NCBI GenBank assembly: GCA_017552715.1
Contig: JAFZOW010000038.1
Coordinates: forward strand, 1 to 35,949
Direction: 5' to 3'
Source of the DNA: Lachnospiraceae bacterium
Lineage (GTDB): Bacteria; Bacillota; Clostridia; Lachnospirales; Lachnospiraceae
Length of the DNA stretch: 35,949 bases
Part shown: positions 16,748 through 34,537 of the stretch, piece by piece
Layout: every line of letters starts with the position of its first letter
Numbering within the stretch: position 1 is the first letter of the stretch
The notes under the pieces: generated by a model
The model's input: the letters and a program-made list of their open reading frames with translations, nothing else
The model's database searches: none
What the model was told of the DNA's origin: nothing
Program-made: the position numbers and the translations under genes

Positions 16748-17792
16748 TGTTTTCATCCTCCTCAATTTTCTCCTCTCCGTTCTCCTCTGTTCCGTTTGTT
16801 TCCGGCTCCCCGGTCCCCGGTATGCTGCCGAAGCCCAGACGCTCCGCCGCATAGGCCTTGATCATCATTTCCCAGATCTCGTAGGCCGCATTGGTCTCAT
16901 GGACGAAGCCGTCACTGCAATATTCTGCTTTCAGATTGCCCTGTCCGTCGGAAAGGGCATCCGCCAGATTTAAAAAGCCCCAGCCGCGCTCGGCGCAAAG
17001 CTCTGCGGCACCGCTGTTAAAGGCCGACAGGTTCTCGTTATTGATGCCGCCCTTCCCGGCCCCGGCCAGGGTGTAGGTGGCGCTGAGTATGGTGATATCC
17101 AGATCCGGACAGGCTGCCAGTATGTTATCGATGAGCAGCGGATACATGGCCAGGCTGTCCTCCACACCGAAGGATACATCATTGATGCCGAAGAACAGGA
17201 AAAGCCGGTTGGGTCCGATCAGGGGTACCGATTCCCAGAGGGGATACTGCACGCCCTGATAAAGCGGGTGTATGCTGGAATCACTCACCGGCCGGAATGC
17301 GTTGTGCAGTGAATAACTGCCGGAGGATAAAAACTTCAGCCCCGAACAGACCGGATCGCTGCTCCTGGCACAGTAATTATTGAATCCCAGCAGTACGGAA
17401 TCCCCGGTAAAGACCGTATTGGAATAGAATTCCGCAATGGCCGCCATCTGTTCATCCGTATAAGTCACGGCCCGCAGCGCTGCCACATCATAGCTGCTCA
17501 CGCCTTCCGCAGGAGCCGCGATATCTTCCGGCGTAGGCTCCGGGGTAGGCGAAGGAGAAGGCGTAGGGCTCGGCCCCACTTCCTTTCCGTCCTCGGAAAC
17601 GAAGGCAAAGGTTCCTTCCTCCGGCTGAAGCTCTGCCGGGGTGGGCACTGCCGTAGGTCCGGCAGACCCGGACGTCATATCGGCGGGGGACGGTGCTACA
17701 GTCCCATCTGCTTCTCCGGCTTTACAGGCGGAAAGAAGCGCACTGCCCACCAGCAGCGCGGACAAAAGCTTTCCTACAGTCTTGCGTACCAT
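16734..17792 (-). CDS. SGNH/GDSL hydrolase lipoprotein
   Basis: A 352-aa exported lipoprotein with signal peptide and lipobox LSAC (Cys near residue 23), then a long Pro/Ser/Thr/Glu linker including SPTPSPSPTPEPTPE. The catalytic domain begins near residue 125: NTVFTGDSVLLGF (GDS nucleophile), LFFGINDVSF (block III Asn) and CSDGFVHETN (Asp and His of block V). It ends in a low-complexity acidic tail of Glu and Asn. Its role is probably deacylation or acyl transfer on a surface polysaccharide, given the MBOAT-DHHW pair in the same operon. The start overlaps the end of the GH113-like gene by 19 bases. It is only distantly similar to the other SGNH lipoprotein at 2946-4244, which has a different layout. 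Confidence 0.82.
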   Translation of the reverse strand: MVRKTVGKLLSALLVGSALLSACKAGEADGTVAPSPADMTSGSAGPTAVPTPAELQPEEGTFAFVSEDGKEVGPSPTPSPSPTPEPTPEDIAAPAEGVSSYDVAALRAVTYTDEQMAAIAEFYSNTVFTGDSVLLGFNNYCARSSDPVCSGLKFLSSGSYSLHNAFRPVSDSSIHPLYQGVQYPLWESVPLIGPNRLFLFFGINDVSFGVEDSLAMYPLLIDNILAACPDLDITILSATYTLAGAGKGGINNENLSAFNSGAAELCAERGWGFLNLADALSDGQGNLKAEYCSDGFVHETNAAYEIWEMMIKAYAAERLGFGSIPGTGEPETNGTEENGEEKIEEDENNEEN

Positions 17793-18742
17793 TCCTTCAT
17801 CACCTGCTCTGCTTTCTTCAAGTGGATATTGAAGCCGTTTTCCTTTTCGGCTTCCTCCCTGCTGTCATAGATCCTGCTGCTCCAATCCCACCAGAATACT
17901 CCTGCAAAATACTCTTCTTCGGAAAAGACCTGCAGGCAGGATTCATAGAAGTTGGCCTGTTCCTCCTCGTCATGAGGAAGATCCGTATGTTCAAAATCCC
18001 AGGGCATCTCCGAACAGCCGGATGCCGAACGGCAGCCGATCTCCATAAAGAGAACGGGCTTGTTCCAGCGTTCATGGACCCTGCGCATCTCATCGCGTAC
18101 TTCCTTCCACTTCTCCGCCATCTCTTCCACGGAGATGTGTCCCTTGCTGCCCACGGGGAAGTAGGCGCTGGTTCCCACATAATCCACGGCATCAAACCAG
18201 TGCACATCCTCTTCATGCCCGTGATTGGCATTGTAGGAAAGCTTCCCGTGATAGAGCAGGCGCACATCGCTGATAAGGCGGCGCCAGTACTCTTCCTTAT
18301 GCTCCGTGCCAAGCATCTCGCAGCCCACGCAGAGCATCTCGCATTGTGTCTCCTCCGCCAGCTTTGCGTAATAGCACATAAAAGCGCTGTAATCCTTAAA
18401 CCATTCGTCCCAGTATCGGTCCTTCCCCCACATATCGCTGTCGGGGAAAGTGATACGGGCACGCCATATGCCGTCTGCGGAATTCAGGGTGGGCTTCAGA
18501 CAGACCTTTATCCCCCGCTTATGGGCATCCGCGATGACCTCCATCAGATCCCGGTCGCTCACGTTCTCGCCGAAGCGGAAGCGTATGGTACGGGAAAAGA
18601 CATCATCCTGCTCCACCACAAAGCAAAGGCAGATCCAGTTCACCCCTGTTTCAAAAAGGCGCTGTCTGGACAGACGCCCCTCTTTGCTGCGGTAATCCCC
18701 TTCCCTGCCGTCAAAACCGTATGTAAAACCTTTTATTTCCAT
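17774..18742 (-). CDS. GH113-like glycoside hydrolase (mannanase-type TIM barrel)
   Basis: A 322-aa protein with no signal peptide, so probably cytoplasmic. The pattern KGFTYGFDGREGDYRS at the start, ADAHKRGIKVCLKPTLNS, WRARITF, VGCEML (Glu142, likely acid/base), VDYVGTSAYFPVG and KPVLFMEIGCRS (Glu234, likely nucleophile), then GVFWWDW, fit a clan GH-A barrel closest to GH113 beta-mannanases. The frame runs upstream into the tRNA gene, but that part merely translates tRNA sequence; the ATG at 18742, with GGGGAAG upstream, gives the family start. It is odd that only 24 bases separate this start from the tRNA terminator, leaving no visible promoter. It heads the operon with SGNH, DUF4358, MBOAT and DHHW genes. 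Confidence 0.75.
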   Translation of the reverse strand: MEIKGFTYGFDGREGDYRSKEGRLSRQRLFETGVNWICLCFVVEQDDVFSRTIRFRFGENVSDRDLMEVIADAHKRGIKVCLKPTLNSADGIWRARITFPDSDMWGKDRYWDEWFKDYSAFMCYYAKLAEETQCEMLCVGCEMLGTEHKEEYWRRLISDVRLLYHGKLSYNANHGHEEDVHWFDAVDYVGTSAYFPVGSKGHISVEEMAEKWKEVRDEMRRVHERWNKPVLFMEIGCRSASGCSEMPWDFEHTDLPHDEEEQANFYESCLQVFSEEEYFAGVFWWDWSSRIYDSREEAEKENGFNIHLKKAEQVMKEWYARL

Positions 18743-18766
18743 AAAAAGCACTTCCCCAGTTCTATG

Positions 18767-18794
18767 AAAAGACCCCGCCGTAATCGGCAGGGTC
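18767..18794 (-). terminator. Intrinsic terminator after tRNA-Val
   Basis: On the minus strand a 10-bp stem GACCCTGCCG/CGGCGGGGTC (one G-T pair) with loop ATTA, followed by TTTTC. It begins four bases after the tRNA 3' end and ends 24 bases before the GH113-like start codon. Confidence 0.8.
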
Positions 18795-18798
18795 TCAG

Positions 18799-18872
18799 TG
18801 GGACCAACAGGGTTCGAACCTGTGACCTCCCGCACGTCAAGCGGACGCTCATCCCAGCTGAGCTATGATCCC
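18799..18872 (-). tRNA. tRNA-Val (anticodon GAC)
   Basis: A 74-nt cloverleaf: acceptor GGGATCA/TGGTCCC with discriminator A, D arm GCTC/GAGC, anticodon stem TCCGC/GCGGG with loop TTGACGT (GAC at positions 34-36), five-base variable loop, and T arm ACAGG-TTCGAAC-CCTGT. The 3' CCA is not encoded and must be added after transcription. It has its own promoter and terminator. GAC reads the Val codon GUC (and GUU by wobble). Confidence 0.95.
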
Positions 18873-18992: not shown

Positions 18993-21116
18993 TCAGTTCT
19001 TATACATCTCCTGCTCCCGGTCCTCCATGAGATGTTCGTTGGCCCGGCGTATGACTTTGGAGATATCATGAGTACCGTACGTGCAGTACACTTCCCCGGT
19101 ATATATCTTCAGGCCCTTTCCGATGGCCTGACGCCGCACTCTTTCCACGTCGTTCAGGAAGAACATCTCTTCGCTCTCAAAACCAAAGGCCACAAACTCC
19201 GTTCCACCCACCCGGAAAACCTGTTCCTTCCCGAACACATCGGAGAGCACCGCGGTGATCTCCAGGATCATGCGGTCACCGGATTCGTAACCCCGGGTAT
19301 CGTTCGCGTTCTTCAGTCCCGAGATCTCGCAGATCAGATATCCGAAGGCGGAGCCCAAATCCAGCTTTTCCTCCAGGAATTCCTTATAGGCACGCCGGTT
19401 CAGCGCTCCCGAGATCACATCGTTATAGCTGTATGCACGGAGCTTTGCCTGCTCATCACGGCGCATGAGAAGCTGCGTAAGGAAGCGGGAAAGCTGTTCG
19501 ATATAGTCGGCGGTCTTTTCCATATCTTCACGGGGCAGGTCGATGAGGGTCAGCATACCCACAAGCTTCTTATCCGTTTCCAGCGGACAGGCCACCATAC
19601 AGTCCACATTATCGGAGCTGAGCATATTATACAGCGCGGGATCGGAAGTTCTGTATTTTTCGATATCTTCAATGATCAGGCTCTTCTGTTCACTGCGGAA
19701 GACCTTATACAGTTCATCCACGAAACCTTTTTCCGGAAGATACAGAAGCCCCCCCGCTCCGGGGCCGCTGACCTTCGCATCCCAGCGGTAGGTGCCGCGG
19801 TATTTTCCTTCGCCCCGTTCTTCAAAAAGAAGGATAAGGCCCGGCTTCAGTTCCGATCCGGTGAATCCCATGATCTCCCGTATCCCTTCATCCGGTGATT
19901 CGGAGGATACAAAGTATTCCAGTGCACGGTTCAGGAAACGGTCCCTCTCGATCAGAGCCTGATCCCGGTTCCACCAGCTCAGGAAGCGCATCAGCATGAT
20001 CGCGATAAAAGCCAGCATTCCGATGCTGGTAAAGGTTCCGTAGCTGTCCAGGATCCGCAGCTTCAGAAAATAGATCACAAGGTCAATGATCCCGCCGGTC
20101 AGGAGTGCGGCAAGCCCGAAAAAGAAGCCTCCCAGATCCGCTTCGATCTCATTGGCCCTGCAATAGAGGAGCTCATCCACAAAAATGATCCCTGTGAGGA
20201 GTGACATGGCCACGATATAGAAAACGATCCCTTTTGAAAAAGAAGTGATCATATCTATCCCGACCAGATAACGAAGGCCCACCAGCGTAAAGAAGGTCAG
20301 GACGGTGATGCCGAAGGCAATGTGCTGATAGATCAGCCGCTTCTGCTTCGTCAGCGAATTGAAATAGGTTATGGTAGGATACATGACCAGAAGGATCAGC
20401 AGACGGTTCAGGACACGTTCCGCAAAGATAAGCCCTGTCATCAGCTGCAGGATATTACTGTCTAGCATGAGCCAGAATCCCATGATCACGGCCGCAAGTC
20501 CCAGGGCCCCCGCATCAAAAGGCAGACGGCCGCGGCCGGAGAGACGTACGAATACCAGGATCGAAAGCACGCCGAAACCGATGATCAGGACCGCGATCAG
20601 CATTGTAGGGGACTTCTGGGCAAGCTGCAGGCGCATATAATCCTCCGCGGGAGAGATATATACATCCTGTATCCTTCCCCCGCCGGCATTCGGATGTACC
20701 TTTTCAAAGTATATGGTCACCTTCCGGCCCGCATCCGCGGAACAAAGTCCCACCGTATGCATGGCAAAGCCGTAACCCACGCCCGTCAGGTTCTCATGGG
20801 TCTGAAAGGAATAGATCTCATCTTCATCCAGACAGACGGAAAAATTCACATTTACGGACTCAAAACACAGGCAGTCCTTCTCCGTGATGGTCTGCGGAAG
20901 CTCCCTCTCCAGGCTGTGGCTCATGCCCTGATACCGGAGGGAATGGACACCCACGTCACGGCGCACCCCTTCGTCGTCCATCCAGCCGTCGGAAAAGTTA
21001 CGGAGTGTTCCGTCTCCGGCTTTTTCCACCCAGACAGCGCCTGCAACGAGCAGCAGTGCGCCAAGGGCGATCAGGACAGTATATATTTTTCTTACGATCC
21101 CACCGTTCTTTTTCAC
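18993..21116 (-). CDS. Membrane GGDEF-domain protein with altered GGTEF site
   Basis: A 707-aa protein starting at a GTG (21116) preceded by GAGGAC. One membrane helix (about 12-29) and an extracellular beta-rich sensor region (30-165) come first. About seven membrane helices follow (172-395), resembling the 7TM-DISM layout, then a GAF-like cytoplasmic region (about 400-560) and a C-terminal GGDEF domain (565-700). The fold motifs LKNANDTRGYESGDRMI are present, but the active-site motif reads RVGGTEF (Thr639) instead of GGDEF or GGEEF. No RxxD inhibitory site is seen. Diguanylate cyclase activity may thus be lost or changed, and the domain could act as a GTP or c-di-GMP sensor. It is the last gene of the signalling operon, 20 bases after the response regulator. 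Confidence 0.85.
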   Translation of the reverse strand: MKKNGGIVRKIYTVLIALGALLLVAGAVWVEKAGDGTLRNFSDGWMDDEGVRRDVGVHSLRYQGMSHSLERELPQTITEKDCLCFESVNVNFSVCLDEDEIYSFQTHENLTGVGYGFAMHTVGLCSADAGRKVTIYFEKVHPNAGGGRIQDVYISPAEDYMRLQLAQKSPTMLIAVLIIGFGVLSILVFVRLSGRGRLPFDAGALGLAAVIMGFWLMLDSNILQLMTGLIFAERVLNRLLILLVMYPTITYFNSLTKQKRLIYQHIAFGITVLTFFTLVGLRYLVGIDMITSFSKGIVFYIVAMSLLTGIIFVDELLYCRANEIEADLGGFFFGLAALLTGGIIDLVIYFLKLRILDSYGTFTSIGMLAFIAIMLMRFLSWWNRDQALIERDRFLNRALEYFVSSESPDEGIREIMGFTGSELKPGLILLFEERGEGKYRGTYRWDAKVSGPGAGGLLYLPEKGFVDELYKVFRSEQKSLIIEDIEKYRTSDPALYNMLSSDNVDCMVACPLETDKKLVGMLTLIDLPREDMEKTADYIEQLSRFLTQLLMRRDEQAKLRAYSYNDVISGALNRRAYKEFLEEKLDLGSAFGYLICEISGLKNANDTRGYESGDRMILEITAVLSDVFGKEQVFRVGGTEFVAFGFESEEMFFLNDVERVRRQAIGKGLKIYTGEVYCTYGTHDISKVIRRANEHLMEDREQEMYKN

Positions 21117-21136: not shown

Positions 21137-21907
21137 TCAGATCATCATCTGTTTAAGAAAGAAATCGTCCAGTGTCTTCAGTATCTCTTCCCGGGTGGAA
21201 GATTTCAGCAGATATCCCTGGGGATTCAGCTTCTTCACCCGTGCGATGCTCTCCCGGGTGGCAATGCCCGTCAGGAAGATCACGGGAATGGAAGCCGTTT
21301 CCGGAAGGGAACGTATCATCTCCAGGATCTCGGCACCGTCCACGATGGGCATCTCATAGTCCAGAAGGATCAGATCCACCTGATGCTTTGCCAGCCAGGT
21401 GACTGCCTGCATCCCGTTGACCGCAAACTCCATGTTGTAATGCGCTCCAAGCCACTCACATACCGTCTGGGCATACATGGGATCATCATCGATGACCAGG
21501 ATCCTTTCCTTGGAGCGGTCCTCGATGGCTGTCTGGGATTCCGTCTCCAGCTCCCGTACCAGCTGGTACATATCTACGGGACGATCCATCCATATGTGTT
21601 CCTTAAAGGCCGGAATAACCTTGAAATAGGAATCCCTGCTGCGGTCCTCACCGATCAGGATCGCCTTTCTGCGGCGGTCCCGTAAAATATCGCTGATACG
21701 GACCAGGTTCTTAAGCTTTTCTATATCTCCCAGGGCCGAATCCTGAAGGTAAAGGATAAAACAGTCCGTAGCATCCAATATCGCCTTTACTTCCTCCGGA
21801 TCATCCTTTATGAGCGTAACCTCAAAATCCTGTTCCTTCAGTCCCTTTTCCAGGGATTTCACCACCACACTGAACTGATAGCTTACGATCGTTACATTCC
21901 CGGCCAT
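21137..21907 (-). CDS. Two-receiver response regulator without output domain
   Basis: A 256-aa soluble protein. Residues 1-125 look like a degenerate receiver: alternating strands and helices, but without the acidic pocket and phosphorylatable Asp. Residues 134-256 are a canonical receiver: Asp140-142 (VIDDD), phospho-acceptor Asp183 in LLDYEMP, Thr213 and Lys235. No DNA-binding or enzymatic output is present. A CheY-like messenger, phosphate shuttle or partner for the neighbouring GGDEF protein would fit. AAGGAGG precedes the ATG at ten-base spacing; the gene starts 15 bases after the DegV-HPt kinase and ends 20 bases before the GGDEF gene. The HPt domain next door is a likely phosphoryl donor (inference). 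Confidence 0.85.
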   Translation of the reverse strand: MAGNVTIVSYQFSVVVKSLEKGLKEQDFEVTLIKDDPEEVKAILDATDCFILYLQDSALGDIEKLKNLVRISDILRDRRRKAILIGEDRSRDSYFKVIPAFKEHIWMDRPVDMYQLVRELETESQTAIEDRSKERILVIDDDPMYAQTVCEWLGAHYNMEFAVNGMQAVTWLAKHQVDLILLDYEMPIVDGAEILEMIRSLPETASIPVIFLTGIATRESIARVKKLNPQGYLLKSSTREEILKTLDDFFLKQMMI

Positions 21908-21922
21908 CGTATCTTCTCCTCC

Positions 21923-24900
21923 TTATTTGCCCCTCTCTTCGATCAGGGCCAGCATCTTTTCGTATTCTTCCGCCTCAAAATACTGCTTCAGACGTATCAG
22001 CAGTTTTCTGTCTTCATCGGGCAGCTCGTATTCCTCCGCTTCCGTAAAGGTTTCCGCAAGCAGCTCCCGGTCGGCATCCTTCGCCGCATCGGCAAGCACT
22101 TCATAGATACTCTCCAGGACCAGCTTGTCAAAACCGCGATTCACGCTTTCCGCCCGCTCTGCCTCGTCCTGTGAGCCCTCCGCTTTCTCTTCTTCCGCTT
22201 CTGCCTTTTCTGCTTCTCCTTCAAAGACGGGAGCCAGCACCGGATGATAGGAGCGGAGATGCTCCAGCAATGCCGCATTGTTGTCACGGATAAAATCGAT
22301 ATTTCCTTCCTTACCCGCCATTTCCAGCTTCAGTGCTTTTTCCGAAAGCTCCCCGGCTCCGATGAGCCTTGCGGAACTCTTCAGTGCATGGACCTTGATG
22401 GTGTAGTTCTTCCAGTCTTCCTGATCCACATAGCCTTCGATCTCCCCCGAAGTATTCTCTATGGAATCGTAAAAGATCTTCAGCACCATGCGGTAGATCT
22501 CTTCGGAGCCGTTATACTTAAGGGCCGTGTCCCCGTCGATCCCCTCAAGCTTCTGATACCAGGCAGGCTCCCCGCTCTCTTCTGCGGCAGACGTATCCGG
22601 CGCTGCGCTCTCCTCTTCCTCCGGCTCCTTCACTGGTTCCGGAACGGCTGCCGGCCCGGTGACCACGGCAGCTTCCTGCGCAGTATCTTCCTCCACAGCG
22701 GCTTCCCGGGGTTCTTCCTCCGACAGCATATTATCCAGATGGTAAGGGTATTCTCCCTTATCGATATACATCAGTCCGAAGGCGCCGGAACCGCAGTTTA
22801 AAGCCAGTACGGCGGAGGATTTCTGTATGATCACGTTCTTGAAACGGAAACGTTTCTCTATCCGTTCCCGGATCCGTTTAAGCTGCGCTTCCGTAAGATC
22901 CGAATAGACCACAAAGATCACATCCGGATCCGGGTCCGCGGAAGCCGGAAGGGCATAATCCACGAAACTCATATAGCTCCGTTCACTGTCTCCGATGCTC
23001 AGCCGTCCCACCATGTAATGCCCGTTCTTATAACGGATCAGGGGCCATATCCCCAGAGTACGCATGATATTGCTGATCCAGCGGCCCAGCCTGTCCCTCC
23101 TGCGTACCACAAAGGCTCCGTCCGCCACGAAACAGCAATGAAGCCTGCTCTTTACCCTCTCCAGTTCTTCCAGGATCTTTTCCGCCGACTCGCCACGGGC
23201 CGAGATCCTCTGGGCCAGCAGCACCAGTATCCCCATGCCGCTGGAATTGGATGCGGAATCCAGGATATGCACGTTATCATAAGCTTTTGCCGCCGCCACG
23301 GCCATGGCGTAATCTTCACTCACCCTCGAAGCCATAGAGATATAGATCACGTTGTGGGCCTTTTTCAGTTCCTTTGCAAAGAAGGCCTCATAATCCGCCA
23401 GGGCAGGCGGTGCCGAACTGAACTGCACACCCTTCTGCATATAACGGACCAGTTCTCCGGTCTCGGCCTCTTCCCCGTCCAGAAAGACCCTGTCCTCGGA
23501 GCGGATCACAAAAGGGATGGTATCGATGCCGTATTCCTTAAGCACCCGCCGGGGCAGATCGCAGAGGCTGCTGGTAGCAACGACCACCGGCATACGCCGG
23601 CTGTAACCCCGGGCTGTATTCATCTGCAGACGGTTTGCCTTTCCGCCGCCGCTCAAAAACACCCTGGACTCCGGCATGTGGGCCAGGATCATCTCCTCCA
23701 GCTGTCTGCCGGAAACCGGCTTGACCAGGTAATCCTCAAAGCCGCTGCGGGCATACAGCTCGCGGTTTTCACTTCCCGCATTGGCGGTAAGAACGATGAT
23801 GGGCACACGGTTGTTCAGCCCGCCGGGCTGCTTTCTTATATTCTGCAGACATTCGATACCGTCCATCTCCGGCATCAGATGGTCCATGAGTATCATATCG
23901 TAGTGGGTGCTCAGGGTCTTTGACAGAGCCTCCTCTCCGCTGCGGGCCAGATCGATGGTCATCTCCGTAGCTGCCAGGAGCTTTTTCTCCACCTCCAGGT
24001 TCATCTCGTTATCATCCACGATGAGCAGACGGGCATCCGGAGCCGTAAAGCCGGTTTCGTAATGCGAAGCCTCCTCCGTCTTGCCGCTGCTTAAGCGTAT
24101 GTCACCTACGGCTTCAAAGCCCGTGACCCGCTGCCGCAGGGTGACCATAAAGGTGGATCCCTGGGTATAGACGCTGTTTACCGTGATGCGCCCGCCCATA
24201 AGCTCCACCAGCTGCCGCACGATGGACAGGCCCAGACCTGTGCCCTCGATCCGGGCATTATTCTCTTCATCGACCCGCTGGAAAGCATCAAACAGATAGG
24301 GAATGGCATCCTGCTTGATCCCCATGCCCGTATCGGAAACGAAAAAGAGCAGGACCAGCTGATCATCCTGCAGGTCTTCCTTTTCGATATGAAGGGTCAC
24401 CGAACCGTCCCTGGTATATTTTACCGCATTGTTTAAGAGGTTCACCAGGATCTGTTTGATACGCACTTCATCCCCGTACAGCTCCGCCGGGATGGAAGGA
24501 TCGATCTCGACCTTCAGTTCCAGGCCTTTCTGTTCCGCCCGCAGCCAGATCATATTTACGATCTCGGAGACCAGGGATCCGATATTGTAGTTTACCGGCA
24601 CGATCTCCATACGGCCGGCTTCGATCTTGGAGAAATCCAGTATATCGTTGATCAGGGACAGGAGCATGCGGCCGGCCCCCTGGATATTGCCCGCATCCCG
24701 GCGGATCTCCTCGGAAGCATCCTCCTGCCGCAGGATGATCTCATTCAATCCGAGTATGGAATTGATGGGCGTACGGATCTCGTGGCTCATGCTGGAGAAG
24801 AAACGGTTCTGGGAGCGGTTCATATCTTCCACCTTTTTGGTTTCTTCCCGTGCCATCTTGTTTTCCTGTTCATAGAGCCGGCTCTGGAACCAGGTCATGA

Positions 24901-25420
24901 CGAAACAGACGTAGCCCACTTCCACCACGGCCAGAGCCATGTCCACATAAAAGAATCCCCGACTGTGTTCATGGATCCATTCGGGATGATTGTAGCCCAG
25001 CACGAAGAGACCGGCGACGGTGGCCGTAAGGGTCAGCAGGCTGAACAGACGCCAGCCCCCGCTCATCACCAGTCCGATATACAGGTAGGAAAAGACCATC
25101 CAGGGTACGACTCCGCCTTCCGCCCCTCCGCCGAAGAAGAAGATCCCCGGCAGTATGATAAAGATCAGTCCCATGCTGATCAGACGTGTGGTAAGCTCTA
25201 TGGCACCGGTCTTTACCCCCAGCCAGGTGGACAGGGGAACCATGATGACCGTAAGGGCAAGTATGATGATCTCAACGATATTCTCCCCGCATAAGATATC
25301 TCCCAGCAGGGCAATGATAGCTACCCCGGTAGCCGAAAGCGTCAGCACCAGGAAGACCCGTTCCCGGAAGCTTCTGGAAGAATCGGAGATCAGCGATTGG
25401 ACGGTCTTATCAAACTTCAC
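21923..25420 (-). CDS. Hybrid histidine kinase with receiver, DegV and HPt domains
   Basis: A 1165-aa membrane phosphorelay protein. Domains in order: about six membrane helices (22-180), short coiled linker, HisKA with SMSHEIRTPINS (His213), HATPase with NLLNNAVKYT, DTGMGIK and GTGLGLSI (325-445), receiver with LLIVDDNE and ILMDHLMP (Asp513), a DegV/EDD domain (about 610-890), an acidic Ala/Glu/Pro linker, and an HPt domain with VHALKSSARLIGA (His1011), then an acidic tail. DegV hallmarks: VVVATSSLCDLP, FSSAPPALADY, ILDSASNSSGMG, RRRDRLGRW and NCGSGAFGL. DegV (FakB) proteins bind fatty acids. Start: the frame opens at 25447, but the GTG at 25420, five bases after AAAGGAGG, is preferred; it overlaps the previous gene by 11 bases. 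Confidence 0.88.
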   Translation of the reverse strand: MKFDKTVQSLISDSSRSFRERVFLVLTLSATGVAIIALLGDILCGENIVEIIILALTVIMVPLSTWLGVKTGAIELTTRLISMGLIFIILPGIFFFGGGAEGGVVPWMVFSYLYIGLVMSGGWRLFSLLTLTATVAGLFVLGYNHPEWIHEHSRGFFYVDMALAVVEVGYVCFVMTWFQSRLYEQENKMAREETKKVEDMNRSQNRFFSSMSHEIRTPINSILGLNEIILRQEDASEEIRRDAGNIQGAGRMLLSLINDILDFSKIEAGRMEIVPVNYNIGSLVSEIVNMIWLRAEQKGLELKVEIDPSIPAELYGDEVRIKQILVNLLNNAVKYTRDGSVTLHIEKEDLQDDQLVLLFFVSDTGMGIKQDAIPYLFDAFQRVDEENNARIEGTGLGLSIVRQLVELMGGRITVNSVYTQGSTFMVTLRQRVTGFEAVGDIRLSSGKTEEASHYETGFTAPDARLLIVDDNEMNLEVEKKLLAATEMTIDLARSGEEALSKTLSTHYDMILMDHLMPEMDGIECLQNIRKQPGGLNNRVPIIVLTANAGSENRELYARSGFEDYLVKPVSGRQLEEMILAHMPESRVFLSGGGKANRLQMNTARGYSRRMPVVVATSSLCDLPRRVLKEYGIDTIPFVIRSEDRVFLDGEEAETGELVRYMQKGVQFSSAPPALADYEAFFAKELKKAHNVIYISMASRVSEDYAMAVAAAKAYDNVHILDSASNSSGMGILVLLAQRISARGESAEKILEELERVKSRLHCCFVADGAFVVRRRDRLGRWISNIMRTLGIWPLIRYKNGHYMVGRLSIGDSERSYMSFVDYALPASADPDPDVIFVVYSDLTEAQLKRIRERIEKRFRFKNVIIQKSSAVLALNCGSGAFGLMYIDKGEYPYHLDNMLSEEEPREAAVEEDTAQEAAVVTGPAAVPEPVKEPEEEESAAPDTSAAEESGEPAWYQKLEGIDGDTALKYNGSEEIYRMVLKIFYDSIENTSGEIEGYVDQEDWKNYTIKVHALKSSARLIGAGELSEKALKLEMAGKEGNIDFIRDNNAALLEHLRSYHPVLAPVFEGEAEKAEAEEEKAEGSQDEAERAESVNRGFDKLVLESIYEVLADAAKDADRELLAETFTEAEEYELPDEDRKLLIRLKQYFEAEEYEKMLALIEERGK

Positions 25421-27479
25421 TCCGGCCTCCTTTCCCACCTGCGGCATTCAGGAAGACTTTGTTTATCGTCCGTTCGAAATCGGGAATGTTGATGGGTTTG
25501 GCGATAAAGCCGTCAAAGCCCTCGTTTAAGAACATTTCCCGGGCACCGCTGATGGCATTGGCCGTGAGGGCGATCATGCATACTTCCCTTTTCTGCCGCC
25601 CTGCTATCTCTTTCAGCCGTTTCATGGCTTCCACGCCGTCCATCCCCGGCATCATGTGATCCATGAATACCAGATCGTAGTCGTTTGCCGAAAACTTCTC
25701 AATGGCTTCCTTTCCGCTTCCCGCGGTATCCACCAGCATTTTATAGTCGCGGAAGAGTCCGCCAGCCACCACCAGGTTCATGGGCTCGTCATCCACGACC
25801 AGGGCCCGGACACCTGTCAGCTCCGGCCGCCGCTCCTCTTCTCTTTCGATGGGCTGCAGCTGTCTCCGGTCGCCGTTCAGCACCCGCACCACCGGATAGC
25901 CGTAAAGGGGGCCGGGGATAAGGATAACGGAACTCCCGGGAGTAAGGTCAAAATCCTCCGGTGCCGATACGGCTACCGTCACCTTCCCCCGGGCAAGCTC
26001 ATCAAAATACTCCCGGGATGCGGCATAGTCCTCCGCTCCCAGAAAGATATGGGAGATGCGGCTGCGTTCCAGGAGGCGCTTAAGCTCCTGTATACTTCCG
26101 CCGGCGTAGAGATTGACCCGCAGACCGGCTGCCAGATGGGTGGTCATGTTCCGACTGAACTCCTGCAGCTTCGTGGAACGCCCGCTTCCCGATGCGATAT
26201 GGAAAGCGATATTGATGAACTCATCCGTATCCAGGCTCAGGCAGGGCGAAGGATCCACGATCTCCTGGGCGATGCTCACCCGGACGGATAAGCCCTTTCT
26301 CTTTTCCCCCTCGATGTTGACAAAACCGCCCATCTTGCGCGTAAAACCGTATACGATGGGCAGACCCAGGCCGATACCCCCGGTACTCCGGTTACGCTTT
26401 TTGTTGGCCTGGTATGTCCCGTCGGAAAGGCGCTCCGCTTCCGCGGTACTCATGCCCACGCCGGTATCCGTCACCTCCAGCTGCAGGTTGATGCCGTAAT
26501 CCCGGCGTATCCCGCTGATCCGCATATATATACCGCCCGAAGGCGTGAACTTCACGGCATTGCTCAGCAGGTGCCGGAGGATCTTGCTGATCTTTCCCGG
26601 ATCACCGAAGAGCACGGCGGGAACCGTAGGATCCAGATCCACCACCAGTTCCAGGCCTTTATTCTTTACATCCTCATACTGCTCCGTGATCACATCGTTT
26701 ATGACGGAAGTGATCATGTATTTTTCCGTCTCCAGCATCACATTGCCGCGCTGCACTTCACTGTAATCCTGGATATCCTCGATCTGCCTGGAAAGCCTCA
26801 GCCCCGCATCCCGGATGGGGATCACGTCCGGCTGATCCTCCTTTTTCAGAATCAGGGAAGACATCCCGTTGATCACGTTAACGGGGGTACGCAGTTCATG
26901 GGAGATGTTGACCAGGAAGTCTTCCATCTCGCTGCGTTCGCTCTCCTTCTCGCTTTCCCGGCGTTCCATCTCTTCCGCATCCTTCTTCCGGAAACGGATC
27001 ACTTCATTCAGGGCGCGGTAGATACAGAGTTCCACCACAACATGAAGCAAAAGACGGGAGATGGTCAGGGGATCAAATTCAAGGGAGTGTTCCCTGAAGA
27101 TCATGAAGAGCTGCATCAGCAGCAGCAGAAAGTATTCGCCTAAAAGCAGGATGAGGAATTCCCGACGGGCCAACAGGGCTACGGTCACCATCAGCACGGC
27201 GGAAATGACCACCAGGTCAAAGAGACTGGTGGCGTGCACTCCGTGATAGAACGCGACCAGCATGCAGAAAAACAGATAGAAGTTTTCACGAAAGACCCGC
27301 TGCCGGTACTGTCCGAGATGAAAGGTCCAGCAGACCACCGTGCCGAGGATGATAAGAGGCGGCACCCAGAACTCCCAGTTCAGGGTGATGCTCTCCACAA
27401 CCGCGCCGATGCAGGCGACCGTGATAAAGATCAGTACGATATTGTGTATCCTGGAATACTGCTTATTCCTGTCGTCCAA
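25410..27479 (-). CDS. Hybrid sensor histidine kinase
   Basis: A 689-aa protein beginning at a TTG (27479) seven bases after GGGAGG. Five or six membrane helices (12-160) lack a large extracellular loop. Then come a coiled linker (165-187), HisKA with VNISHELRTPVN (His194), HATPase with LSNAVKFTP, DTGVGM and GGIGLGLPI, a middle region (about 405-530) that resembles a worn receiver without its acidic pocket, and a C-terminal receiver with LVVDDEPMN and VFMDHMMPG (Asp607), Thr and Lys conserved. It probably passes phosphate His to Asp and on to the HPt domain of the next protein. The gene overlaps the next one by 11 bases and follows pepF by 20 bases. The signal sensed is unknown; a membrane-embedded ligand is plausible. 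Confidence 0.9.
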   Translation of the reverse strand: MDDRNKQYSRIHNIVLIFITVACIGAVVESITLNWEFWVPPLIILGTVVCWTFHLGQYRQRVFRENFYLFFCMLVAFYHGVHATSLFDLVVISAVLMVTVALLARREFLILLLGEYFLLLLMQLFMIFREHSLEFDPLTISRLLLHVVVELCIYRALNEVIRFRKKDAEEMERRESEKESERSEMEDFLVNISHELRTPVNVINGMSSLILKKEDQPDVIPIRDAGLRLSRQIEDIQDYSEVQRGNVMLETEKYMITSVINDVITEQYEDVKNKGLELVVDLDPTVPAVLFGDPGKISKILRHLLSNAVKFTPSGGIYMRISGIRRDYGINLQLEVTDTGVGMSTAEAERLSDGTYQANKKRNRSTGGIGLGLPIVYGFTRKMGGFVNIEGEKRKGLSVRVSIAQEIVDPSPCLSLDTDEFINIAFHIASGSGRSTKLQEFSRNMTTHLAAGLRVNLYAGGSIQELKRLLERSRISHIFLGAEDYAASREYFDELARGKVTVAVSAPEDFDLTPGSSVILIPGPLYGYPVVRVLNGDRRQLQPIEREEERRPELTGVRALVVDDEPMNLVVAGGLFRDYKMLVDTAGSGKEAIEKFSANDYDLVFMDHMMPGMDGVEAMKRLKEIAGRQKREVCMIALTANAISGAREMFLNEGFDGFIAKPINIPDFERTINKVFLNAAGGKGGRSEV

Positions 27480-29358: not shown

Positions 29359-30417
29359 TCAGCCGGCTGCCTTCTTGGCCTTCTCTGCCTTGATGGCTGC
29401 GGTAAGCTGAGGCACGATCTTGTTCAGATCGCCGACCACACCGTAGTCTGCCACATCGAAGATGGGAGCATCCTCGTCCTTGTTGATGGCAACGATGATG
29501 TCGCTCTCTTCCATGCCGGCCACGTGCTGGATCGCACCGGAGATACCGATGGCGAAATACAGGTTCGGGCGAACGGTCTTACCGGTCTGGCCTACCTGCA
29601 GATCCTTGGGCTTCCAGCCTGCATCCACAACGGCACGGGAGCAGGAAACGGTGCCGCCGACAGCTTCAGCCAGCTCTTCGAGGATCTTGAAGTTCTCGGG
29701 AGAGCCAACGCCACGGCCGCCGGAAACAAGGATCTTTGCATCCATGATATCCACGGTATCGGAAACGGCCTTCACCACTTCCTTGATGGTCACATAACGG
29801 TCATCTGCCTTGAAGCCCGGATTGAACTCGATCACTTCGGCCTTCTTTCCCGCAATGGGATCGATCTTCTGCATAACACCGGGACGTACGGTCGCCATCT
29901 GGGGACGGTTGTCCGGGCAGGCGATGGTAGCGATGGTGTTGCCGCCGAAAGCGGGACGGGTCATGAGCAGCTGATTGTGCTTCTGCTCGTTCTCCTTGCC
30001 GGGAACGGGGTTCAGAGGGAAGTCACCGATATCCAGCTGTGTGCAGTCGGCGGTAAGGCCGGTAGCCACACGTGCGGAAACGGTAGGTCCCAGGTCACGG
30101 CCGATGGCGGTAGCACCTACCAGCACGATCTCGGGCTTGTACACGTTGATCACGCTGGAAAGAGCATGTGCGTAAGGCTCGGTGCGGTAATCCTTCAGCT
30201 CGGGATCATCCACCACGATGACCTTGTCGGCACCGTACTCTGCCAGACGGTCGGCCAGGCCTTTCACGCCGGAACCGATCAGAACAGCGGTCACATCGGT
30301 CTTTAAAGGCTCAGCCAGATCCCTGGCCTTGCCCAGCAGTTCAAAAGCGATAGGGCTGATCTCATTGTCTACCTGCTGTGCGAAGACATATACGCCCTTG
30401 TAATCTTCTAATGCCAT
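29359..30417 (-). CDS. etfA: Electron transfer flavoprotein alpha subunit
   Basis: Partner of EtfB; together with butyryl-CoA dehydrogenase it moves electrons from NADH to crotonyl-CoA and, in anaerobes, to ferredoxin by flavin-based electron bifurcation. The 352-aa protein has the C-terminal FAD-binding signature: ILVSGGRGVGSPENF, SRAVVDAGWKP, VGQTGKTVRPNLYFAIGISG, IQHVAGMEESDIIVAINKDEDAPIFDVADYG split over consecutive positions. GGGAGGAG precedes the ATG. It follows etfB by 14 bases and is the last gene before a strong terminator. Bifurcation is inferred from the anaerobic bcd-etfBA context, not proved by sequence. Confidence 0.97.
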   Translation of the reverse strand: MALEDYKGVYVFAQQVDNEISPIAFELLGKARDLAEPLKTDVTAVLIGSGVKGLADRLAEYGADKVIVVDDPELKDYRTEPYAHALSSVINVYKPEIVLVGATAIGRDLGPTVSARVATGLTADCTQLDIGDFPLNPVPGKENEQKHNQLLMTRPAFGGNTIATIACPDNRPQMATVRPGVMQKIDPIAGKKAEVIEFNPGFKADDRYVTIKEVVKAVSDTVDIMDAKILVSGGRGVGSPENFKILEELAEAVGGTVSCSRAVVDAGWKPKDLQVGQTGKTVRPNLYFAIGISGAIQHVAGMEESDIIVAINKDEDAPIFDVADYGVVGDLNKIVPQLTAAIKAEKAKKAAG

Positions 30418-30431
30418 TTTATTCTCCTCCC

Positions 30432-31223
30432 TTAGATCACATGTTTTTCATTCAGCTTCTCTACGATGTAGGAAACCGACTCTTCAGGTGAATCGAATGC
30501 CTTCTTCTCGCCGGCACCCTTACGCACCTTATCGGAAGCCTTGGCGATCTTGGTAGGAGATCCTGCCAGACCGATATTGCAATCATCCACATCCTTCAGG
30601 TCATCGCGGCCCCAGGTGGTGATCTCGGCCTTCACAGCATCAAAGATGCCGCCAACGCTCATGTAACGGGGCTCGTTGAGCTCGGAAAGAGCGGTGATCA
30701 GGCAGGGCATCTTGGCCTCTACCACATGATAACGATCGTCATACTGACGCTTTACGGTAACCTTCTTTGCGGCCTCGTCTACCTTGATATCCATGGCATA
30801 AGAGATCACGGGCAGCTTTAAGTGCTCGGCGATCTGAGGGCCTACCTGTGCGGTATCACCGTCGATAGCCTGACGGCCGGTGATGATCAGGTCGTACTCC
30901 AGATTGCGGATAGCACCCGCAATGGTGGTGGAGGTAGCCCAGGTATCTGCACCGCCCAGTCTGCGGTCGGTCACCAGCACTGCCTTGTCGGCACCCATGG
31001 CCAGTGCTTCCTGCAGCACATCGGTAGCCTTGGGAAGACCCATGGTGAGCACGGTCACTTCTGCGCCGTACTGATCCTTCAGACGAAGTGCAGCCTCAAG
31101 ACCGGCCTTGTCATCGGGATTCATGATGGTGAGCATAGCTGCTCTGTTCAGAGTTCCGTCGGGATTGAATTCCACGCCGCCTTTTGTATCCGGAACCTGC
31201 TTGATACATACGATTATCTTCAA
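30432..31223 (-). CDS. etfB: Electron transfer flavoprotein beta subunit
   Basis: The smaller ETF subunit, 263 aa, starting at a TTG (31223) seven bases after GGGAGGG. It opens with IIVCIKQVPDT and has MNPDDKAGLEAALRLKD, TVLTMGLPKATDVLQEALAMG, and the family signature ITGRQAIDGDTAQVGPQIAE. In clostridial Bcd-EtfAB complexes this subunit holds the bifurcating FAD and binds NADH. It follows bcd by 16 bases and precedes etfA by 14, the usual order in butyrate producers. Confidence 0.97.
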   Translation of the reverse strand: MKIIVCIKQVPDTKGGVEFNPDGTLNRAAMLTIMNPDDKAGLEAALRLKDQYGAEVTVLTMGLPKATDVLQEALAMGADKAVLVTDRRLGGADTWATSTTIAGAIRNLEYDLIITGRQAIDGDTAQVGPQIAEHLKLPVISYAMDIKVDEAAKKVTVKRQYDDRYHVVEAKMPCLITALSELNEPRYMSVGGIFDAVKAEITTWGRDDLKDVDDCNIGLAGSPTKIAKASDKVRKGAGEKKAFDSPEESVSYIVEKLNEKHVI

Positions 31224-31239
31224 TGTCTTGCCCTCCCTA

Positions 31240-32406
31240 TCACTTCAAAATGTTCGCGGAAATGACCATACGCTGCACCTCGGAGGTACCTTCGTAGATC
31301 TCGGTGATCTTGGCATCACGCATCATGCGCTCCACGTCGTACTCACGGATGTAACCGTAACCGCCGTGCAGCTGCACTGCCTTGGTCGTCACTTCCATCG
31401 CAACCTCTGCCGCGTAAAGCTTAGCCATAGCTGCTTCCACGGAATAGGAAACCTTCGGGTTCTTCTGGTATTCGGCCTTCTTCATAGCGGCTGCGTATAC
31501 CAGATACTGGGCTGCCTGCACCTTGGTGGCCATGTCAGCCAGCTGGAACTGCGTGTTCTGGAAAGCGCCGATGGCACGTCCGAACTGCTTTCTTTCCTTA
31601 ACGTAGTTAATGGTGGTCTCCAGAGCGCCCTCTGCAAGGCCCAGAGCCTGTGCAGCGATACCGATACGGCCGCCGTCCAGGGTGTGCATTGCAATGTTGA
31701 AGCCCTTGCCCTGCTGTCCCAGGAGGTTCTCCTTGGGGATGCGGCAATCCGTGAAGATCAGCTCGTAGGTGGAGGATCCGCGGATACCCATCTTGTTTTC
31801 CTTTGTTCCGAAGCTGAAGCCCGGAGTTCCCTTCTCAACGATGAAAGCACTGATCTCTTTCATCATCTTGCCGCGCTTCTCGATCTTGCCGGTCACAGCG
31901 AAGATCACATATACATCGGCTTCCTTACCGTTGGTAATGAAGCACTTGGAGCCGTTGAGCACCCACTCGTCTCCGTCCAGCACAGCCTTGGTCTGCTGTC
32001 CCTGGGCATCGGTACCTGCACCGGGCTCGGTAAGACCGAAAGCACCCAGCTTCTCGCCCTTTGCAAGGGGGATCAGGTACTTCTGCTTCTGCTCGTCGGT
32101 ACCGAAGGTCATGATGGGATCCACACACAGAGAGGTGTGAGCGGAAACGATAACACCTGTGGTACCGCAGACTTTGGAGAGCTCCTCGACGCACATCGCA
32201 TAGGTCAGAGGATCTGCACCCTGGCCGCCCCATTCCTTTGCTACGGGGATGCCCAGGAAGCCGTATCTGGCCATCTTCTCGACTGTCTCACGGGGGAAAC
32301 GCTCTTCCTCATCTACTTCCTGCGCCAGCGGCTTTACCTCGTTCTGGGCAAAATCGCGGAAGAGCTGTCTCGCCATTTCATGTTCTTTGCTTAAGCTGAA
32401 TTCCAT
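31240..32406 (-). CDS. bcd: Butyryl-CoA dehydrogenase
   Basis: A 388-aa FAD-dependent short-chain acyl-CoA dehydrogenase that reduces crotonyl-CoA to butyryl-CoA with EtfAB. Signatures: EEERFPRETVEKMA, FGLTEPGAGTDAQGQ, KCFITNG, KMGIRGSSTYEL, DGGRIGIAAQALG, and the active-site glutamate in IYEGTSEVQRMVI (about Glu372). The frame is open up to 32463, but the ATG at 32406 has AAGGAGG upstream and gives the normal start MEFSLSKEHEM. Some 170 bases separate it from hbd and contain tandem-hairpin element B and further small hairpins. Confidence 0.97.
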   Translation of the reverse strand: MEFSLSKEHEMARQLFRDFAQNEVKPLAQEVDEEERFPRETVEKMARYGFLGIPVAKEWGGQGADPLTYAMCVEELSKVCGTTGVIVSAHTSLCVDPIMTFGTDEQKQKYLIPLAKGEKLGAFGLTEPGAGTDAQGQQTKAVLDGDEWVLNGSKCFITNGKEADVYVIFAVTGKIEKRGKMMKEISAFIVEKGTPGFSFGTKENKMGIRGSSTYELIFTDCRIPKENLLGQQGKGFNIAMHTLDGGRIGIAAQALGLAEGALETTINYVKERKQFGRAIGAFQNTQFQLADMATKVQAAQYLVYAAAMKKAEYQKNPKVSYSVEAAMAKLYAAEVAMEVTTKAVQLHGGYGYIREYDVERMMRDAKITEIYEGTSEVQRMVISANILK

Positions 32407-32501
32407 GATATTAATTAACCTCCTTATGAGTTTTTTACTATTTGTCCGGTCAGCCCGAAGCACCTGCTGCTGAGGGCGTGCATATTAGCTTACGCCACAT
32501 C

Positions 32502-32578
32502 CGCAGCCCGCCTTTTGCGAAGCAAAACTTTCCATGCGGGCTGCGAAATGTTCAGAAGCCTCCGGCTTTTGAACATTT
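32502..32578 (-). other. Tandem-hairpin element B, between hbd and bcd
   Basis: On the minus strand, one base after the hbd stop, come two touching hairpins. Hairpin 1 (32578-32546, 33 nt) has arms AAATGTTCA/TGAACATTT continued by AAGCC/GGCTT with loop GGA. Hairpin 2 (32545-32502, 44 nt) has a perfect 10-bp outer stem CGCAGCCCGC/GCGGGCTGCG, a 5' bulge ATGGAAAG and an inner stem TTTTGC/GCAAAA with triloop TTC. No T run follows. The rest of the gap (to 32430) has weaker pairings GGCGT/ACGCC and CAGC/GCTG. The plan matches element A at 8654-8732. Confidence 0.65.
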
Positions 32579-32579
32579 C

Positions 32580-33452
32580 TTATTTATCGGTAGGCACCTT
32601 GCCGCCGTCTGCATAGTTATAGAAGCCGATGCCGGTCTTGACGCCCAGCTTCTTGGCACGGACCATCTTACGAAGCAGCGGGCATGCACGATACTTGGGA
32701 TCGCCGGTCTCCTTGTAGATAACGTCCATGATGGCCAGAACGATGTCCAGACCTACGTAATCGCCCAGCTCCAGGGGACCCATGGGATGATTGCAGCCCA
32801 GCTTCATAGCGGTATCGATACCCTCGATATCGGAAACGCCCTCGGCGTATACGCAGATACCCTCGTTGATGAGAGGGATCAGGATGCGGTTGACCACAAA
32901 GCCCGGAGCCTCGTTCACCTGTACGGGAGTCTTGCCCAGATCGCGGGAGATCTCGTTCACCTTCTCCACCAGCTCCTTCGGGGTGTTCGCGCCTGCGATG
33001 ACCTCGATCAGCTTCATAACGGGAGCGGGATTGAAGAAGTGCATGCCTACCACAGGCTTGGGAAGGCCAGCACCGATCTCGGTGATGGACAGGGAAGAAG
33101 TATTGGATGCATAAACGCAATCCGGATTCTTCACGATATTCTCCATCAGGTTCTTGAAGCACTCTTTCTTGATATCCATAACTTCCAGAGCTGCCTCAAC
33201 GATCAGATCCGCGTCCACGCAGATGTCGTTAAGACCGGTCTTGAACTTAGCCATGATGGCATCCGCCTCGGCCTGCTCCTTCTTGCCCTTGGCTACCAGC
33301 TTGTCCATAGCCTTCTGTACCTTGGCCTTGCCGCCGTCGGCAAATTCCTGCTTGATGTCGCAGAGATATACGGTATCCACCTTGTCGCACTGCGCAAATG
33401 CCTGTGCGATGCCGCTTCCCATTGTTCCTGCGCCGATAACACCTACCTTCAT
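32580..33452 (-). CDS. hbd: 3-hydroxybutyryl-CoA dehydrogenase
   Basis: Reduces acetoacetyl-CoA to 3-hydroxybutyryl-CoA using NAD(P)H. The 290-aa protein starts with the nucleotide-binding KVGVIGAGTMGSGIAQAFA. It has ASNTSSLSIT, the catalytic histidine in VVGMHFFNPAPVMKLIEVI, GFVVNRILIPLINEG, and the C-terminal dimer domain with HPMGPLELGDYVGLD and KTGIGFYNY. AAAGGAGG precedes the ATG. It lies 18 bases after the small membrane gene orf69 and is followed by element B before bcd. Confidence 0.97.
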   Translation of the reverse strand: MKVGVIGAGTMGSGIAQAFAQCDKVDTVYLCDIKQEFADGGKAKVQKAMDKLVAKGKKEQAEADAIMAKFKTGLNDICVDADLIVEAALEVMDIKKECFKNLMENIVKNPDCVYASNTSSLSITEIGAGLPKPVVGMHFFNPAPVMKLIEVIAGANTPKELVEKVNEISRDLGKTPVQVNEAPGFVVNRILIPLINEGICVYAEGVSDIEGIDTAMKLGCNHPMGPLELGDYVGLDIVLAIMDVIYKETGDPKYRACPLLRKMVRAKKLGVKTGIGFYNYADGGKVPTDK

Positions 33453-33470
33453 ATATCTTTCCTCCTTTTA

Positions 33471-33680
33471 TTATTTCACGTTGTTGTTCTGTTCCTGATA
33501 AGGGATCCCGGGATAAGCGTTCTGAGCGAGCATTTCATTTTCCGCTTCCACTTCCTTCAGAAATTTATCACGCTCACGCTTCTTCTGTATCAGTGTGACT
33601 CCTCCGATGATCAGCCCCACCAGTATGAGCACTGCACCGAAGATTCCCGGGATAAGGATCAGTATGCCTATACTTGCCAT
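33471..33680 (-). CDS. Small membrane protein inside the butyrate operon
   Basis: A 69-aa protein. Residues 3-32 are a continuous hydrophobic stretch with internal Gly and Pro (long single helix or tight hairpin). A basic KKRERDK segment and a charged, probably helical region (34-52) follow, then a polar tail with Tyr, Pro, Gln and Asn. By the positive-inside rule the tail is cytoplasmic. The ATG follows the crt stop by one base (TAAGATG), so translation is probably coupled; the ribosome binding site is weak. I do not recognise a family. Tight packing between crt and hbd argues it is a real gene; it could tether pathway enzymes to the membrane, but nothing in the sequence proves that. Confidence 0.7.
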   Translation of the reverse strand: MASIGILILIPGIFGAVLILVGLIIGGVTLIQKKRERDKFLKEVEAENEMLAQNAYPGIPYQEQNNNVK

Positions 33681-33681
33681 C

Positions 33682-34476: not shown

Positions 34477-34498
34477 ATCTTACCTCCTGTATGGTTTA

Positions 34499-34528
34499 CA
34501 TAAAGAAGGGGGAGCCTTGCACTCCCCC
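34499..34528 (-). terminator. Terminator-like hairpin between thl and crt (attenuator candidate)
   Basis: On the minus strand GGGGGAG/CTCCCCC (34528-34508, seven perfect GC-rich pairs, seven-base loop) followed by TTCTTTATG. It sits ten bases after the thl stop and before the crt ribosome binding site. As crt has no visible promoter of its own, partial termination that lowers downstream expression relative to thl is likely. Confidence 0.55.
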
Positions 34529-34537
34529 GAAAGTTCC

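Follow-up and report, generated by a model that had tools for sequence, protein, structure and literature searches.

A DegV-fused hybrid histidine kinase and its partner kinase in Lachnospiraceae: a candidate lipid-sensing phosphorelay

Why should a domain with the fold of a fatty acid carrier sit inside a phosphorelay kinase? The question is raised by the gene designated here as HK-B, a DegV-fused hybrid histidine kinase encoded at positions 21923 to 25420 (minus strand; GTG start, 1165 aa) of a 35,949-nucleotide stretch of Lachnospiraceae DNA (contig JAFZOW010000038.1, assembly GCA_017552715.1), referred to below in its full length as the window. The DegV domain of HK-B lies between a receiver (REC) and a histidine phosphotransfer (HPt) domain. 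To our knowledge, FakB proteins are separate carriers for FakA, and we know of no setting for the DegV fold other than fatty acid carriage. The initial annotation proposed that a bound acyl ligand gates phosphate transfer along the chain from receiver to HPt. We favor another answer, in which HK-B and the hybrid kinase encoded beside it, HK-A, would form a two-kinase phosphorelay that shares an HPt domain and takes its state from an acyl-type ligand in DegV, and we put the chances of this at about even. Somewhat below even stands the broader proposal that the whole DegV subfamily was recruited from fatty acid carriage as an intracellular lipid-sensing subunit of such a relay, first as a separate protein and then by fusion, with the HPt domain moving afterwards. 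As judged from its sequence, HK-B would belong to the hybrid-kinase phosphorelay type with an added DegV module, that module being a member of the DegV fold family and not a FakB.

The HK-B frame is unbroken on the minus strand from 21923 to 25447 if counted from its first ATG (1174 aa). Because AGGAGG ends 5 bases ahead of the GTG at 25420, this GTG is likely to be the start, over the ATG at 25447. Residue numbers given here are counted from the ATG; those of the initial annotation are lower by 9. The domain order is transmembrane (TM) region, HisKA, HATPase, REC, DegV and HPt, and all five Pfam domains score over their cut-offs. On the minus strand, these are HisKA at residues 213–278 (24614–24811; phospho-His H222), HATPase_c at residues 325–439 (24131–24475), Response_reg at residues 475–587 (23687–24025; phospho-Asp D522), DegV/EDD at residues 622–896 (22760–23584; Pfam and structure model) and HPt at residues 988–1051 (22295–22486; phospho-His H1020). 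In a hydropathy scan, the membrane region (residues 31–183; 24899–25357) shows five to six hydrophobic stretches joined by short loops, and Pfam finds no recognized sensor domain in it. An acidic, proline-containing linker (residues 911–959; 22571–22717) joins DegV to HPt, and a C-terminal tail, traced by blastp, occupies 21926–22222. The coordinates, domain order and phospho-residues first assigned (Asp513 and His1011, here D522 and H1020) are correct, and H222, D522 and H1020 are each invariant in 82 of 82 aligned proteins, namely 80 relatives, HK-B of the window and a second copy from the same genome (L007 was replaced by L090 after this alignment).

HisKA, HATPase, REC and HPt domains and their phospho-residues are shared with hybrid kinases such as ArcB, BarA, TorS and EvgS, and the best NCBIfam matches of HK-B (best 25 of 157) include TorS, BarA, LuxQ and ArcB, all under their cut-offs. 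Unlike kinases of these types, HK-B carries an extra DegV domain and has a second hybrid kinase adjoining, and the HPt domain occurs on either partner or apart. Such a frame could be two genes joined by assembly error, or a one-off accident, and the probability of this is negligible: the same genome contains a second fused frame (C50, 1156 aa) in addition to five stand-alone DegV frames, and a long frame that includes DegV (1054–1238 aa, stop to stop) is present in 80/80 fetched loci. A fusion created by sequencing error, which the initial annotation had raised against itself, was rejected on the same two observations, and the frame is taken as genuine. The fetched loci, from which relative counts are taken, are the best 80 of at least 584 in a genome contig collection that hold a relative of whole HK-B, hybrid kinases of any sort included. 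Seventy-four of the 80 are recorded as Lachnospiraceae or Butyrivibrio, and many are from the rumen.

That residues of about 610 to 890 form a DegV/EDD domain, as first proposed, is borne out by profile searches, with Pfam PF02645 matched at E 1.7e-38 (133 bits versus a cut-off of 27) and TIGR00762 at 144.7 bits (cut-off 99.7). A structure model of residues 608–905, built from 37 relatives (pLDDT 88.9, pTM 0.87), fits DegV/FakB structures over its full length (2dt8, TM 0.83/0.88; FakB1 6mh9, TM 0.84/0.87), and the first 45 structure matches are DegV/FakB with TM on the query of 0.72–0.85. The fold of this domain is predicted to be the same as that of fatty-acid-bound DegV structures. The C-terminal domain of FakA (PF13684, FakA-like_C) is also DegV-related, but its match to HK-B is weak (E 0.0017, below the Pfam cut-off) and its fold match is much poorer than that of FakB (6w6b, TM 0.47/0.58). 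This comparison bears on the possibility that DegV is a structural or docking module holding HK-A, HK-B and HPt together with no ligand. There is precedent, in that a DegV relative, the C-terminal domain of FakA, serves as the FakB-binding domain (PMC9136124; PMC10146087). The occurrence of HPt on HK-A, on HK-B or apart suggests close protein association, and the positions of FakB1 His270 and Arg173 are changed in most kinase-linked DegV domains. Against docking stand the far better fit to DegV/FakB than to FakA_C and the Ser/Thr kept at the Thr62 carboxylate position in 110 of 123 linked domains, and we consider a ligand-free module unlikely, although its chances are appreciable.

The pocket was first described as altered, and the alteration proves to be a family trait. 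Of the three motifs reported, NCGSG in place of HxGPG is correct; TSS and SSAPP were each read one register off, and in register with solved relatives the DST motif reads SSL and the TSxPS motif reads SAPPA. FakB1 fixes the carboxylate of its fatty acid through the network Ser171-His270-Thr62-fatty acid-Ser95 (PMC8892158), and Arg173, for the kinase reaction, and Arg205, for FakA and membrane docking, are described as completely conserved in FakB (PMC8892158; PMC9136124). FakB1 numbering was transferred to HK-B through HMMER alignment and motif register, with the FakB1 chain itself outside the alignment, which places H270 at N884, R205 at I818, R173 at R786 and T62 at S678. The HxGPG and GGR motifs make the equivalences of H270 and R173 firmer, whereas those of T62, S95, S171 and R205 should be considered putative.

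Kinase-linked DegV domains (part of a histidine kinase or the product of a gene next to one; 123 in total) differ at these positions from 25 unlinked ones. The H270 position is Asn in 108/123 and His in 5/123 linked domains, versus His in 23/25 unlinked domains. At the R205 position, Arg is found in 2/123 linked domains, with M, F, I, L or V in 102, versus 21/25 unlinked; if the adjacent column is allowed, the values are 3/123 and 23/25. The R173 position has Arg in 30/123 linked versus 25/25 unlinked domains, and HK-B of the window is among those that keep it (R786). All three coupling residues occur together in 0/123 linked versus 21/25 unlinked domains (23 with the adjacent column allowed). 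Note that 23 of the unlinked domains are stand-alone proteins and the other two are L102 (FakA-like) and L103 (a HAD fusion), that flanks were checked mostly for ∼1.5 kb per side, and that L168 has a weak receiver match nearby. Six fresh loci agree, with Asn in the fused proteins L186 and L187, which come from a different family within the class, and His in the stand-alone L188–L191, which have no kinase match alongside. By this alignment, the residues for FakA coupling are read as lost family-wide in kinase-linked DegV domains.

A FakA-like frame is present on another contig of the same genome (557 aa; FakA-like_C, E 6.7e-91), so the loss of coupling is not explained by a missing FakA. The stand-alone kin in L180 and L181 score 73 and 92 bits versus 350 for the NCBIfam FakB1 equivalog cut-off. 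The HK-B domain fails two FakB-defining residues and should therefore not be filed as FakB: it has the FakB fold over its full length, but it is tied to a histidine kinase and is changed at Arg205 and His270 and, in part of the family, at Arg173. A role for HK-B DegV as a FakA substrate within the relay was considered and is argued against by these residue changes. Whether the domain is dedicated to the relay and not to fatty acid activation is a proposition that we regard as evenly balanced. The T62 position keeps Ser/Thr in 82/88 linked domains of the type with HPt on HK-B and in 28/35 others; the S95 position is uninformative, as unlinked domains vary there as well (Ser/Thr in 11/25). On the recruitment proposal, the change from His to Asn at the head-group site would point to some ligand that is not the carboxylate of a free fatty acid.

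Two unlinked members have unusual architectures. L102:2617-4398 encodes a Dak2-FakA_M-DegV protein of 594 aa, FakA-like but with a FakB-like end: its C-terminal domain reaches the score of a full DegV (E 1.6e-71), and the H270 and R205 positions are occupied by Asn and Ala, respectively. L103:3160-4827 encodes a HAD hydrolase-DegV fusion of 556 aa.

HK-A, the partner hybrid kinase (25410–27479, minus strand; 689 aa), has HisKA, HATPase and receiver domains by Pfam, with a segment that we read as a degenerate receiver ahead of the last, and has no HPt. The middle segment, between HATPase and receiver (25797–26306, minus strand), is receiver-sized and has no Pfam match. A homologue of HK-A lies upstream of HK-B in 79/80 loci, within 52 bases in 78 and at 424 bases in L072; in L082 and L083 no more than the 3′ end of this homologue is visible, and the one locus without it, L029, is on a contig that starts inside HK-B. 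The association was also examined in reverse, using the HK-A middle segment (19 rows) as a probe against 150 Lachnospiraceae genomes. Matches were found in 45/150 genomes, and 39 matches were strong (E ≤ 2.3e-31). A DegV-fused kinase adjoins 35 of these and a stand-alone DegV adjoins 2, while the remaining 2 (G022:C48 and G134:C14) meet a contig end on the DegV side. Within this sample, the association with DegV is as close for HK-A as it is for HK-B. Among the weaker matches (E 3e-21 and up), G041:C32 and G103:C15 are kinase-segment-DegV proteins. A comparable order is seen in L099:3451-6060 and L182:3790-6375, where a kinase and an HK-A-like degenerate receiver segment are followed by DegV; Pfam recognizes no receiver in L099.

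Placement of DegV between receiver and HPt is the layout of one arrangement among several. A profile of 37 fused DegV domains was searched against 250 Lachnospiraceae genomes, and among the matches listed, 7 genomes contribute 9 frames of 1128–1174 aa and 34 genomes contribute 41 others. Forty of these others are 724–997 aa long, and the remaining one, G041:C32, is listed at 1340 aa but measures 870 aa when read from its first start. Ten loci, fetched ones and special cases, were scanned with Pfam. The domain order of HK-B in the window, which the initial annotation suggested looking for in other genomes, occurs in relatives elsewhere and was seen by Pfam in L090. HK-REC-DegV proteins without HPt are encoded in L091, L095, L097, L101 and L104, a DegV-TM-HK-REC protein (HK denoting the kinase) in L098, and an HK-DegV protein in L099. 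In the sister arrangement, DegV ends the HK-B protein, and the partner kinases are longer and end in HPt. Pfam finds this HPt in 6/7 scanned partner frames or fragments; that of L108 falls just under the Pfam cut-off, and that of L100 is detected by a custom HPt model only. The HPt and tail of HK-B resemble these partner ends, with blastp E values of 6e-9 to 1e-19 in 13/14 rows, the match entering the tail in some rows only. The 14 rows are 12 partner frames, one fragment and one separate HPt, and the L101 partner failed (E 6). From this similarity, the HPt module is judged homologous across arrangements.

Pairs were counted from 115 readable cases (94 + 19 + 2), which after removal of 2 identical duplicates (L112 and L113, identical to L061 and L015) gave 113 distinct pairs. 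L162, from the same place as L101, was also dropped, L051 and L063 (96% alike) were both kept, and six HK-B genes without a readable partner were left out. HPt is present on HK-B only in 83 pairs, on HK-A only in 28, on neither in 2 and on both in 0. In each of the two loci with HPt on neither kinase (L098 and L101), there is a separate HPt open reading frame (ORF): one of 127 aa in L098, where the HK-B gene is cut by the contig end, and a 324-aa protein with an intact HPt in the L101 locus (L192:669-1640). In the HK-A of L101 (7207-9669), the tail resembles an HPt in which the phospho-His is replaced by Arg. In L180 and L181, DegV is a separate gene directly behind an HPt-bearing kinase.

These arrangements bear on the proposal that an acyl ligand in DegV gates receiver-to-HPt transfer within the chain. 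The domain order of HK-B in the window is what recommends it. However, HPt is on the partner kinase in 28/113 pairs, it joined HK-B once in the trees described below, DegV is separate in two loci and N-terminal in one, and the DegV-HPt linker is variable in length and predicted to be disordered. We consider in-chain gating to be very improbable, and the role first assigned to the position of DegV between receiver and HPt is set aside. Gating of another kind, with DegV acting on receiver or kinase, is possible.

Phylogenetic trees place the arrangements in order. In a tree of the HK-B kinase core rooted on HK-A (59 rows, 36 with HPt on HK-B; quick search, no bootstrap), the HPt-on-B proteins form one clade (SH-aLRT 99) inside a grade without HPt; L099 had a branch length of 10 and fell among HK-A rows. 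A second kinase-core tree (54 rows, 25 with HPt on HK-B, rooted on eight chosen rows), which includes the diverged HPt-on-B protein L116, gives the same clade at SH-aLRT 99. A tree built from the DegV domains (82 rows, 22 with HPt on HK-B) puts 57 kinase-linked domains on one side of a branch and 25 unlinked domains on the other (SH-aLRT 99). L180 and L181 come off first (94), followed by fused domains without HPt and then by fused domains with HPt, which form a clade of 21 rows at 99, the support falling to 63 once L116 is included. Kinase-linked DegV domains are in this tree a single clade, and HPt appears to have joined the DegV kinase once. The simplest reading of the order of events is that DegV acted in trans, was fused behind the receiver of the second kinase, and that HPt then moved to the end of that protein. 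If this order holds, DegV would have come to lie between receiver and HPt late, and as a by-product.

From the receiver Asp to the DegV DLP motif there are 106–108 residues in 87/87 HPt-on-B proteins and 106–114 in 24/28 others. Between the NCG loop of DegV and the phospho-His of HPt lie 102–170 residues in 82/87 HPt-on-B rows. Values were taken from 119 rows less L112, L113, L098 and L099, and rows without a measurement are those that failed the regular expressions. In a model of REC-DegV-HPt (31 sequences, pTM 0.51), the domains are confident and the DegV-HPt linker, residues 911–959, is disordered (pLDDT about 32). The near-fixed REC-DegV spacing, together with the variable, disordered linker, would place DegV at a set distance from the receiver with HPt on a tether.

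The same near-fixed spacing, with DegV C-terminal and right behind the receiver in the commoner arrangement as in REC-effector proteins, would also suit DegV as an output of the HK-B receiver, such that phosphorylation of D522 controls lipid binding or release. That layout is countered by L098, where DegV is N-terminal of the membrane region and kinase, and by L180 and L181, where it is a separate protein; in addition, the residues required to pass a fatty acid on to FakA have been lost, so no known acceptor is left. We consider an output role improbable.

As an input, DegV would act in the two-kinase relay as follows. HK-A and HK-B would autophosphorylate on His and pass phosphate to their own receivers, and from these to a shared HPt (in the window H1020 of HK-B, on its flexible tether). 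HPt would then donate to a separate response regulator, for example the adjoining one of 256 aa. DegV would bind an acyl-type ligand from the cytoplasm or the inner membrane leaflet, and the ligand-bound form may alter the kinase and receiver of HK-B, by changing kinase versus phosphatase state or by holding phosphate at the receiver. Since Pfam finds no sensor domain in the N-terminal part of HK-B or of HK-A, where there are likewise hydrophobic segments with short loops, DegV is the plainest candidate input. We infer that the two kinases pair physically, that phosphate follows this route, that DegV binds a ligand and that it serves as input and not output.

Several observations weigh against the lipid-sensing relay. 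The counts are not independent, due to shared ancestry, selection by similarity to HK-B and the origin of several loci from one metagenome-assembled genome (MAG). The rule of one HPt per pair is not strict, as two HPt matches fall on the partner kinase of L193. Some loci also have unrelated frames with an HPt in their vicinity, and HPt status is less sure in L072 (partner frame stops before the receiver), L097 (partner split) and L098 (HK-B runs off the contig). In the 59-row tree, 29/56 inner branches are under 80, and the trees are quick ones with no bootstrap. The FakB1 positions depend on alignment transfer. The FakB1 carboxylate network is only partly kept in HK-B-type DegV, and ligand binding could be lost; the ligand of HK-B DegV is a prediction. 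The REC-DegV link (602–616) is itself of low confidence in the REC-DegV-HPt model, and a domain C-terminal to a receiver is the usual layout of an output domain too. The L193 frame (L193:3-3014) is an HK-A with HPt matches at 727–835 and 928–1004; it reaches the contig end, and its HK-B gene lies off the contig.

The DegV-kinase architecture is probably listed in domain databases. No description of a DegV-fused kinase was found by searches of open PMC papers, preprints excluded, and the DegV passages of PMC12688256, PMC9912610 and PMC3533761 contain none. If the proposed reading is true, histidine kinases would gain a new class of internal (cytoplasmic) acyl sensor, and if DegV senses lipid, we would learn which signal is monitored by a paired kinase that is widespread in Lachnospiraceae of the rumen and gut. 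Whatever the ligand, the family offers a natural experiment in phosphorelay rearrangement, with HPt on either partner or separate from both kinases, and in no readable pair on both. The residue code (Asn versus His at HxGPG, and no Arg205) could let annotators tell kinase-dedicated DegV from FakB.

With regard to distribution, frames >580 aa were found only in Lachnospiraceae at E ≤ 1e-50 in 398 phylum-wide genomes. Restriction of HK-B to this family was nevertheless rejected, because at E ≤ 1e-55 a search across 291 genomes of the class added two fused frames from a different family (G697 and G768); note that such strict thresholds would miss divergent fusions. No plasmid-borne close relative with 80% of HK-B in one place was found by tblastn among the best 5000 plasmid records. 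The best plasmid match listed, on Treponema saccharophilum NZ_AP025290.1:364038-365618, is annotated as a response regulator and is 46% identical to HK-B in two pieces covering 44%.

Downstream of HK-B in the window, a response regulator of 256 aa (21137–21907, minus strand) is the candidate phosphate acceptor. Pfam places its receiver after the first 130 aa and finds no output domain; the N-terminal 130 aa (21518–21907) are receiver-sized and have no Pfam match. The whole regulator is matched in 68/80 loci, receiver-only matches included, and its N-terminal part in 44/80. A membrane protein with a degenerate GGDEF domain (GGTEF; 18993–21116, minus strand) is a neighbor in part of the family, matched in 17/80 loci and in 14 for its N-terminal part. 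The GGDEF signature is changed in 13/14 matches elsewhere (SGTEF, GSSEL, NGTDF, etc.), the sole intact one being a second match in L017. Given changed signatures in the window and in these matches, the GGTEF protein is probably not an active cyclase. Genes of c-di-GMP type near kinase pairs encode GGDEF (window and L182), REC-GGDEF (L180) and REC-REC-HD-GYP (L098) proteins. No single conserved relay output emerged: 256-aa-like regulators, GGDEF, REC-GGDEF and REC-REC-HD-GYP recur and none is found everywhere, these recurrences being given without a control count.

Upstream in the window (29359–35737) are butyrate-type genes, namely etfA, etfB and those for acyl-CoA dehydrogenase, enoyl-CoA hydratase and thiolase. 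The initial annotation, stating that the organism makes butyrate, called an acyl signal appealing but unproved. Queries with etfA and etfB (E 1e-5) gave no match in the 80 loci, with flanks of up to 6 kb where contigs allow. The link was dropped, as these two genes, which alone of the five were queried, are not conserved neighbors. A tRNA-Val(gac) gene at 18798–18872 on the minus strand overlaps the start of a GH113 frame (17774–18835).

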